This document shows positions 56,485-57,452 of a stretch of DNA of 64,000 nt, one piece after another. The first letter of the stretch is position 1, and every line of letters starts with the position of its first letter. The translations under genes and the position numbers were made by a program. Under the pieces are notes generated by a model. That model was not told the origin of the DNA. It saw only the letters and a list, made by a program, of their open reading frames with translations, and did no database searches. The stretch is from NCBI RefSeq assembly GCF_001278805.1, contig NZ_CP012602.1:4189501-4253500 (forward strand). Direction: 5' to 3'. Source of the stretch: Bacillus sp. FJAT-18017. Lineage in GTDB: Bacteria; Bacillota; Bacilli; Bacillales; Cytobacillaceae.

Positions 56485-56514
56485 TGCATAGTTTGCCAAA
56501 TCTTGCACACGCTA
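56485..56514 (+). promoter_or_regulatory. Sigma-G/F-like promoter 1
   Basis: TGCATA (56485-56490), a 17-bp spacer and CACGCTA (56508-56514) compare with the sigma-G consensus TGAATA-N17/18-CATACTA at 5/6 and 5/7 positions. The -10 ends 20 bp before the ATG of the Gly/Asn-rich gene. The neighbouring gene has the same layout. Confidence 0.45.
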
Positions 56515-56534
56515 TTGACGTGGAGGTGATTGAG

Positions 56535-56708
56535 ATGGCAAACGGACAAAATCGCCAGGGCGGCGGACAAGGAAATGGCAATAACGGCCAAAATGGCGGA
56601 CTAATGGATAAGATGCGCCAGGGCTTTGAAAATGTCGTCGACGCAATTACAGGTGACGATGAAAACAAAGGCGGCGGACAAAAGAACCGCAACAACCAAA
56701 ACCGCTAA
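56535..56708 (+). CDS. Small Gly/Asn/Gln-rich protein (57 residues), candidate forespore protein
   Basis: The ATG at 56535 has GGAGGTG 6 nt upstream. The protein opens MANGQNRQGGGQGNGNNGQN, has one helical core (LMDKMRQGFENVVDAIT, then GDDENKGG) and ends with an Asn/Arg-rich tail. It is hydrophilic and lacks Cys. The low-complexity composition, small size, sigma-G/F-like promoter and a tandem partner with a similar start suggest an SASP-like or other spore-core protein. No known family fits. Confidence 0.7.
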   Translation: MANGQNRQGGGQGNGNNGQNGGLMDKMRQGFENVVDAITGDDENKGGGQKNRNNQNR

Positions 56709-56723
56709 GCGGTTTAACAAAAG

Positions 56724-56744
56724 CGCCACTGAGTGGCGTTTTTT
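56724..56744 (+). terminator. Terminator after the first Asn-rich gene
   Basis: CGCCAC-TGA-GTGGCG is followed by TTTTTT, 15 bp past the stop codon. Confidence 0.9.
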
Positions 56745-56747
56745 GTT

Positions 56748-56777
56748 GGAATATTAATTCGGAATTTACACAACCTA
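56748..56777 (+). promoter_or_regulatory. Sigma-G/F-like promoter 2
   Basis: GGAATA (56748-56753), a 17-bp spacer and CAACCTA (56771-56777) match TGAATA / CATACTA at 5/6 and 5/7 positions. The -10 ends 21 bp before the next ATG, the same geometry as promoter 1. Confidence 0.45.
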
Positions 56778-56798
56778 CCAGTATCAGGAGGTGAAGTT

Positions 56799-57005
56799 AT
56801 GGCGAACCAACAGAACAAAGGAAATCAGGACAATCAAGTTGCTGAAGGAATCAAAAATACGGCTGGGGCTGCTTTCCATGCTGCCCACAATGCACTTGAA
56901 ACAACCGAGGATGCAGCAATGAATGCAGTAGATGCTACTGCCAACGCGGTTAACAATACTGCCGAAAACGCACGAAACATGATGAGAAACAACAACGAAC
57001 AGTAA
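56799..57005 (+). CDS. Small Ala/Asn-rich protein (68 residues), candidate forespore protein
   Basis: The ATG at 56799 has AGGAGGTGA upstream. After MANQQNKGNQDNQ the protein forms a long Ala-rich amphipathic helix with spaced Asn, Glu and Thr residues (GIKNTAGAAFHAAHNALET ... ANAVNNTAENARNMM). This is a pattern seen in LEA-like or SASP-like proteins that fold on a partner. The start MANQQN resembles MANGQN of the gene just upstream. The terminator at 57010 follows. No known family is recognised. Confidence 0.72.
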   Translation: MANQQNKGNQDNQVAEGIKNTAGAAFHAAHNALETTEDAAMNAVDATANAVNNTAENARNMMRNNNEQ

Positions 57006-57009
57006 AAGA

Positions 57010-57033
57010 CGCCTTTTAAAGGCGTTTTTTTAT
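57010..57033. terminator. Bidirectional terminator
   Basis: ACGCCTTT-TAAAGGCGT closes a short hairpin with T7 on the plus strand. It sits between the end of the Ala/Asn-rich gene and the convergent lipoprotein gene. Confidence 0.85.
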
Positions 57034-57452
57034 TTATCTTCCAGTTTTTCACCGGTGAAGATTTCGTAAAGCTCAGCTGATTCACTTGCAGGCAGGTGAA
57101 CGTACTTGCTTGAATCGGTTGTCAGTTCTAGCCTGTCATTGCCTGGGCTGATCCAAACCATATAGGCTTGCACTTTCGCATCAACATTATCATATTCGAA
57201 GGCAAACATGTAGTCAGCAGGGCGGACCATGCTGACTTTGGCATTCTCCCAATCTGCTTCATCAAGTATTTCCCTCGCCTTTTTTACTTTTTCGCTTTCA
57301 GATTCTTCTCTAAAGTTCTCATAGGCAGAGTCAATCTCTCCATCTGCGTGCTTAAGAACATCAATCCTTTTTTCCTCCAGGAAGGCTTCCCTGAGGCAAC
57401 CGCCCAGTATTAACAGGAGCATTGTTATGATAGCAGCTTTTCCATATTGCAT
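57030..57452 (-). CDS. Hypothetical lipoprotein
   Basis: This 140-residue protein has a lipoprotein signal (IITMLLLILGGC, lipobox LGGC). A charged helical segment (about 25-70) is followed by a small beta domain (MVRPADYMFAFEYDNVDAKV). No family is recognised. The RBS is AGGAGGG. A DUF4275 gene lies 24 bp upstream on the same strand, so the two may be co-transcribed. Confidence 0.75.
   Translation of the reverse strand: MQYGKAAIITMLLLILGGCLREAFLEEKRIDVLKHADGEIDSAYENFREESESEKVKKAREILDEADWENAKVSMVRPADYMFAFEYDNVDAKVQAYMVWISPGNDRLELTTDSSKYVHLPASESAELYEIFTGEKLEDK

Follow-up and report, generated by a model that had tools for sequence, protein, structure and literature searches.

Two adjacent small genes behind sigma-G-type promoters in Bacillus sp. 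FJAT-18017 as candidate members of unnamed spore protein families

Gene layout of the locus

Near the end of a window of 64,000 nucleotides (the whole stretch analysed here, bases 4189501-4253500 of the complete 5,265,381-base genome of Bacillus sp. FJAT-18017, contig NZ_CP012602.1), two small genes, P0001 and P0002, follow each other on the forward strand with these features:

56486..56490, + strand: -35-like element of gene 1, GCATA
56508..56514, + strand: -10-like element of gene 1, CACGCTA
56522..56526, + strand: ribosome binding site of gene 1, GGAGG
56535..56708, + strand: gene 1 (P0001), 57 aa, start MANGQN; N/G/Q-rich with a short conserved amphipathic helix
56724..56744, + strand: terminator hairpin between the genes, CGCCAC-TGA-GTGGCG, then T6
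56749..56753, + strand: -35-like element of gene 2, GAATA
56771..56777, + strand: -10-like element of gene 2, CAACCTA; with the two preceding bases it reads CACAACCTA
56786..56793, + strand: ribosome binding site of gene 2, AGGAGGTG, which contains GGAGG
56799..57005, + strand: gene 2 (P0002), 68 aa, start MANQQN; N-rich head, then one long amphipathic helix
57004..57030, + strand: terminator of gene 2, from the consensus scanner and folding

The preliminary description of this DNA had reported two genes of 57 and 68 codons, a strong terminator between them and a separate promoter for each, and all of these were recovered. Both frames are present, each behind GGAGG; the spacer between the -35 and -10 elements is N17 at both genes, and the -10 element ends 20 bp (gene 1) and 21 bp (gene 2) before the ATG. 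Folding compared with shuffles gave -17.7 kcal/mol (z -3.76, positions 56706-56750) for the intergenic hairpin and -13.0 kcal/mol (z -4.32, positions 57003-57040) for the hairpin after gene 2; on the + strand, the consensus terminator scanner listed only the latter of the two.

The ratios of non-synonymous to synonymous substitution rates (dN/dS) supported both frames as coding and under purifying selection. Among the genome that holds the window (G000), Bacillus sp. FJAT-27225 (G005) and Bacillus sp. EB01 (G007), dN/dS was 0.06-0.08 for P0002 and 0.14-0.17 for P0001. Other unsaturated pairs gave 0.33-0.41 for P0002, from three very close pairs with few changes, and 0.04-0.45 for P0001. As read from the sequence, P0001 and P0002 are two conserved small genes with sigma-G-type promoters that are predicted to be transcribed separately.

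Their description as a tandem pair held in part. The two genes adjoin in three of the eight genomes of the genus (G000, G005 and G007); they lie apart in Bacillus sp. FJAT-27245 (G002), Neobacillus notoginsengisoli (G004) and Neobacillus piezotolerans (G006), and P0001 alone was found in G001 and G003. Comparison of the two families with hhalign detected no similarity. The pair would reflect two unrelated families that lie side by side locally, neither a duplication nor a unit.

Two irregular copies were seen. A P0001 relative in G002 (L016/L106; G002:C1:2230393-2230557) carries an in-frame TGA and keeps a promoter-like site, and represents a decayed copy or a sequencing error. In G004, a short degenerate second P0002 copy without a good promoter of its own (L012; G004:C32:31621-31722) lies roughly 1 kb away from the intact copy.

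Promoter motif and its company in the genus

We scored upstream sequences with the motif GHATA-N17/18-CANNCTA (maximum 10) in a search window whose end lay 12-40 bases upstream of the start codon, using dinucleotide shuffles as background; because the sequences share ancestry, the counts are not independent of one another. The P0002 set comprised 76 distinct last-60-base upstreams after duplicates were collapsed. L102, which has no usable start, and L012 were left out, and five rows of our order sample without loci (G359, G349:C20, G313, G095 and G140) lie outside the set. The P0001 set comprised 16 distinct upstreams, the partial L115 being dropped. Grouped by their sigma dependence in B. subtilis, the controls were alpha/beta small acid-soluble spore protein (SASP) genes (30 loci, one without a start) and tlp for sigma-G, spoIID and spoIVA (30 loci, 27 distinct; a promoter hard to place by eye) for sigma-E, and spoIIR (30 loci, one without a start) for sigma-F.

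Scores of at least 8 were reached by 73 of the 76 P0002 upstreams (shuffled 9.8%) and 14 of the 16 P0001 upstreams (shuffled 5.0%), and scores of at least 9 by 61/76 (shuffled 1.2%) and 10/16 (shuffled 0.5%), respectively. Among the sigma-G controls, 15/29 SASP genes (shuffled 8.6%) and 18/30 tlp genes (shuffled 5.6%) scored at least 8, with 7/29 and 10/30 at 9 or above. The sigma-E controls showed no rise (at least 8 in 3/30 for spoIID, shuffled 6.8%, and 4/27 for spoIVA, shuffled 16%; at least 9 in 1/30 and 0/27), and spoIIR was raised at 8 (17/29, shuffled 4.6%) and not at 9 (1/29). Set against shuffles and controls, these counts bear out the earlier proposal of forespore-type promoters.

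Most of the upstream sequence differs among the relatives, but the motif recurs at a near-constant distance from the start. At the 14 P0001 sites scoring at least 8, the -10 frequencies were C.93, A 1.0, C.93, T 1.0 and A 1.0 at positions 1, 2, 5, 6 and 7; these are upper values, as each site was picked by best score. Several P0001 relatives outside the genus lack a clean -35; L112 and L116 scored 7. For P0002, the letters kept across genera are A-x-x-CTA (1.0,.90, 1.0 and.99), with the T of CATA in 53%. The window's two -10 sites lack the T of CAT (CAC and CAA), like some SASP sites. The alpha/beta SASP promoters of these genomes share such -10 variants, e.g., CACACTCTA, CACAATCTA and CACATTCTA, and the -10 of P0002 in the window, CACAACCTA, differs by one letter from CACAATCTA, the form at the alpha/beta SASP genes L127 and L136. 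L010/L081 have CATTCTA at N17/18. Thalassobacillus relatives of P0002 (L068, L067, L069 and L071) have the -10 CAAACTA, as in many tlp promoters, at the place occupied by CATAACCTA in other relatives.

We also searched whole genomes for the motif followed by GGAGG within 4-20 bases, all counts coming from one pattern search. The pattern occurred at 39 places in the eight genus genomes, and its reverse at four. In the 5.27-Mb genome of the window, the five places were the two genes themselves, fin, a DUF3243 gene and an unnamed gene of 55 codons. Of the 39 sequences, 30 were fetched and nine assigned by matched letters or position; eight proteins, one from each class tested, were compared with family models. 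Sporulation-type genes accounted for fin (7), YkwD-family LysM/CAP (5), DUF3243 (3), SspP (2), YuzL (1) and a Gin-like gene (1, by eye). Other small genes were P0001 (7), P0002 (2), the 55-codon gene (6) and an unnamed 52-codon gene (1); the rest were CoA-transferase (2), a TPP-enzyme-like gene (1, by eye) and a place without a frame (1). The sporulation-type classes other than SspP and csfB are likewise linked to the forespore, by the sigma dependence of fin, ykwD, ymfJ and yuzL in B. subtilis. SspP is a SASP (PMC3533761) and csfB, encoding Gin, has one promoter read by both sigma-F and sigma-G polymerases (PMC4383634). In this genus the motif mostly marks forespore-type genes, with some false hits.

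Two of these places belong to further unnamed small genes. A gene of 54-55 codons (MAKRTKKNDPQQKNKQGF...; G000:C1:224585-224628, L282:1329-1493:-, also L271, L278, L288 and L292) stands behind GAATA-N17-CATACTA and GGAGG in six of the eight genus genomes (five fetched, G002 by matched letters), and a TEFGKEFG stretch in its product recalls gamma-type SASP. A 52-codon N/Q/G-rich gene in G001 (L280:1549-1704:+) stands behind GAATA-N17-CACACTA and GGAGG. Neither L282 nor L280 matched a Pfam or NCBIfam model at E <= 0.01.

Spread and properties of the two protein families

P0002 is widespread among Bacillaceae-type spore formers. Genome scans, from which the reach of both families is taken, found it in 11 of 61 relatives and, in the order sample, in 34 of 348 genomes and 21 of 127 genera. 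All 53 named loci are in Bacillota, with hosts including Neobacillus, Mesobacillus, Aquibacillus, Thalassobacillus, Paraliobacillus, Anaerobacillus, Heyndrickxia, Pseudalkalibacillus, Rossellomorea, Natronobacillus, Peribacillus, one Paenibacillus and others. In the order sample, a sigma-G gene (E <= 4.4e-137) was present in each of the 34 genomes with P0002. The homologue search proposed in the preliminary description has thus far placed P0002 only in spore-former lineages. P0002 was absent from the 14 genomes read as lacking sigma-G, a weak result, as only about 1.4 would be expected from 34/348; one of these, G238 (80% complete), may carry a partial sigma-G gene. A search of plasmid and phage records with P0002 gave no match. 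P0001, searched in the 61 relatives and in 193 genomes of its family, occurred in all eight genus genomes and, within the family, in 16 genomes from 5 of 25 genera.

In 22 P0002 loci (L041 and L086 being the same stretch), where open reading frames were judged by eye, no neighbour was common to most. A DoxX-like gene lies nearby in L041 and L089, and an Rrf2-like gene in L008 and L025, both named by eye. No description of either family was recognised in the literature; the families are nameless, so the search terms were indirect.

Neither protein of the window passed the cut-off of any Pfam or NCBIfam model. The 15 P0001 members scanned gave no matches to these databases, and the 66 P0002 members gave scattered ones (best E 0.0003, in 2/66), including weak matches to perilipin (2/66, best E 0.0055) and phasin (2/66, best E 0.0034). 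None of the 66 P0002 or 15 P0001 proteins matched a SASP model of Pfam or NCBIfam at E <= 0.01, in agreement with the earlier statement that neither fits a known SASP family. No Pfam or NCBIfam family was convincingly matched, and both families appear unnamed there.

Both sets of proteins are small and rich in N, Q and A, without W; C occurs in 1/76 and Y in 4/76 P0002 proteins, and in none of the 16 P0001 proteins. They had been described as low-complexity, which falls short for both, as each has a conserved amphipathic helix. In the P0002 alignment (66 of 76 proteins, distinct and beginning with M), K19, A22, F26, E37, M41 and D45 are invariant. The AlphaFold model of P0002 is one helix over residues 9-66 (mean predicted local distance difference test score, pLDDT, 76; predicted template modelling score, pTM, 0.36). 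That of P0001 has a helix at residues 21-38 between low-confidence N/G/Q-rich tails (mean pLDDT 57); its structure alignment leaves out L016. Both helices are strongly amphipathic, with 1 of 5000 column shuffles reaching as high a value in each family.

The hydrophobic moment of P0002 peaked at 98.2 degrees (0.342) and was 0.323 at 100 and 0.191 at 102.9 degrees. Self-similarity of its columns was 0.363 at lag 11 (reached there in 1/2000 shuffles, and at some lag in 14/2000) and higher, 0.496, at lag 15. These values no more than suggest an 11-residue repeat. The GPR protease site of alpha/beta and gamma SASPs has the form E[IF][AG][ST]E, and this motif was found in 0/76 P0002 and 0/16 P0001 proteins.

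Candidate role, alternative readings and comparison with known systems

We consider P0001 and P0002 most likely to be unnamed minor SASP-like spore proteins. The full reading, which we hold to be probable, is that they represent two separate families of such proteins, produced in the forespore from sigma-G-dependent one-gene units and perhaps acting by helix-based shielding. Each gene would be transcribed on its own by sigma-G RNA polymerase in the forespore, a step strongly supported by sequence, and the proteins would then accumulate there and be stored in the spore, likely in its core, as the preliminary description had proposed. P0002 might be largely flexible when wet and fold into one long amphipathic helix upon loss of core water or contact with the inner membrane, and this helix could shield membrane or proteins in the fashion of late embryogenesis abundant (LEA) proteins. 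P0001 might do a similar surface-binding job by means of a short amphipathic helix flanked by two N/G/Q-rich tails. On germination, both would be broken down or diluted. Both proteins probably help to fill or protect the dormant spore.

Several observations weigh against this interpretation. The 10-point motif was derived from these genes, so its enrichment test is partly circular. Because it had been read off the families, we repeated the test with the published consensus of sigma-A, -E, -F, -G and -K, that of sigma-G being GHATR-N17/18-CATNHTA. In favour of the interpretation, the sigma-G form reached at least 10/11 in 32/76 P0002 (shuffled 4.2%) and 9/16 P0001 upstreams (shuffled 2.5%), and in 12/29 SASP, 7/30 tlp, 0/30 spoIID, 1/27 spoIVA and 1/29 spoIIR controls. 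The motif is also incomplete, as 14/29 alpha/beta SASP and 12/30 tlp genes scored below 8. The P0002 upstreams of L065 and L078 scored 7, and that of L003, in G005 where the pair is adjacent, has no good site (6/10); this copy may be expressed by read-through from P0001. Many P0002 -10 elements from other genera read CATAACCTA or CATATCCTA, which also fit the mother-cell -10 CATANNNTA. The sigma-K form reached at least 7/8 in 40/76 P0002 upstreams (shuffled 11.6%) and was not clearly raised in tlp (5/30, shuffled 7.0%) or SASP (3/29, shuffled 12.9%), and the sigma-E form reached at least 12/15 in 27/76 P0002 upstreams (shuffled 4.1%). On the protein side, P0002 matched no solved structure by sequence or fold, and model confidence was low for P0001 (pLDDT 57) and moderate for P0002 (76, pTM 0.36).

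The sigma-G-type promoters, together with the small size, the N/Q/A-rich composition, the lack of W and the near absence of C and Y, would equally suit SASPs of gamma type in function, made under sigma-G as an amino-acid reserve or filler without a specific partner and degraded on germination. We regard this as possible and clearly less likely, since the GPR-type motif was found in neither family, and the invariant core of P0002 and the strong amphipathicity of both families suggest a surface rather than composition alone. More doubtful is a specific version in which P0002 is a widespread undescribed forespore family, disordered and turning helical on drying, that coats the inner membrane or core proteins as an LEA-like shield distinct from the DNA-binding SASP, with P0001 as a second, lineage-limited player in the same compartment.

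The frequent CATANNNTA-like -10 elements of the relatives and ATA at -35 could also mean that P0002 is a mother-cell gene under sigma-E or sigma-K, encoding a coat or cortex-associated peptide, and that P0001 alone belongs to the forespore. In C. difficile, said to resemble B. subtilis, sigma-E and sigma-K promoters resemble each other in the -10 element and have ATA or AC at -35 (PMC3789822). For P0002, sigma-E or sigma-K is a live rival, and we judge the mother-cell explanation unlikely. The window and its closest relative, G007, have CACAACCTA, without CATA and one letter from the SASP CACAATCTA; A-x-x-CTA is kept across genera, the T of CATA at only 53%; and the Thalassobacillus CAAACTA and the CATTCTA of L010/L081 at N17/18 point the same way. 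The sigma-G score was not raised in the sigma-E controls spoIID and spoIVA. In tlp, a sigma-G control, the sigma-E form was also raised (10/30, shuffled 2.0%), so that its rise in P0002 is no argument against sigma-G.

Of similarly low probability is an assignment to early forespore sigma-F genes, or to genes shared by sigma-F and sigma-G. Genes picked out by the motif include fin and a Gin-like gene, fin and Gin being dependent on sigma-F, and 17/29 spoIIR upstreams scored at least 8. The csfB promoter is one used by both polymerases (PMC4383634). The sigma-F consensus form, at a threshold of 10/12, was found in 29/29 spoIIR upstreams but raised in neither family (P0002 7/76, shuffled 7.0%; P0001 0/16, shuffled 3.4%). 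The C. difficile report gives a G kept upstream of the -10 for sigma-F promoters and an A kept at the downstream end of the -10 for sigma-G (PMC3789822). Both families keep the final TA of the -10, and their sites, without the upstream G and with the final A kept, lie on the sigma-G side. Two features favour sigma-G over sigma-F, the TA at the end of the -10 and the conserved C of CANNCTA, and sigma-G is the most likely factor for both genes.

Chance frames with chance promoter matches, a doubt raised earlier by promoter scores of only 5/6 and 5/7 and now largely removed by upstream conservation and the rarity of the pattern, are extremely improbable and refuted as far as sequence allows, given purifying selection, relatives in 21/127 genera and conserved sites.

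Minor forespore small proteins are a known kind; the two families appear to be new. Spore resistance and germination have been studied in few model species, and two more forespore families, one of them spread over many Bacillaceae-type genera, would indicate that the forespore set of small proteins is incompletely named. Scanning for the motif with a ribosome binding site is a cheap finder of more, and turned up the two other unnamed small genes described above.

Among known systems, LEA-type and other 11-residue amphipathic helices (LEA_4, perilipin and phasin) resemble the P0002 model, a single long helix whose moment peaks at 98 degrees, whereas P0002 has no LEA_4 match, a moment almost as high at 100 degrees and a lag-15 value exceeding that at lag 11. 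With alpha/beta and gamma SASP, P0001 and P0002 share the MANNN-like N-terminus, N/Q-rich composition and sigma-G-type promoter; unlike these, they lack a PF00269 match and E[IF][AG][ST]E, and have another helix pattern. SASPs are sigma-G dependent, and minor SASPs are narrowly distributed and differ between lineages (PMC3533761). Although P0001 and P0002 match no SASP model, they are like the minor SASPs (SspG to SspP and Tlp) in being small and hydrophilic, in their sigma-G-type promoters, in forming one-gene units with their own terminators and in their patchy presence within Bacillaceae.
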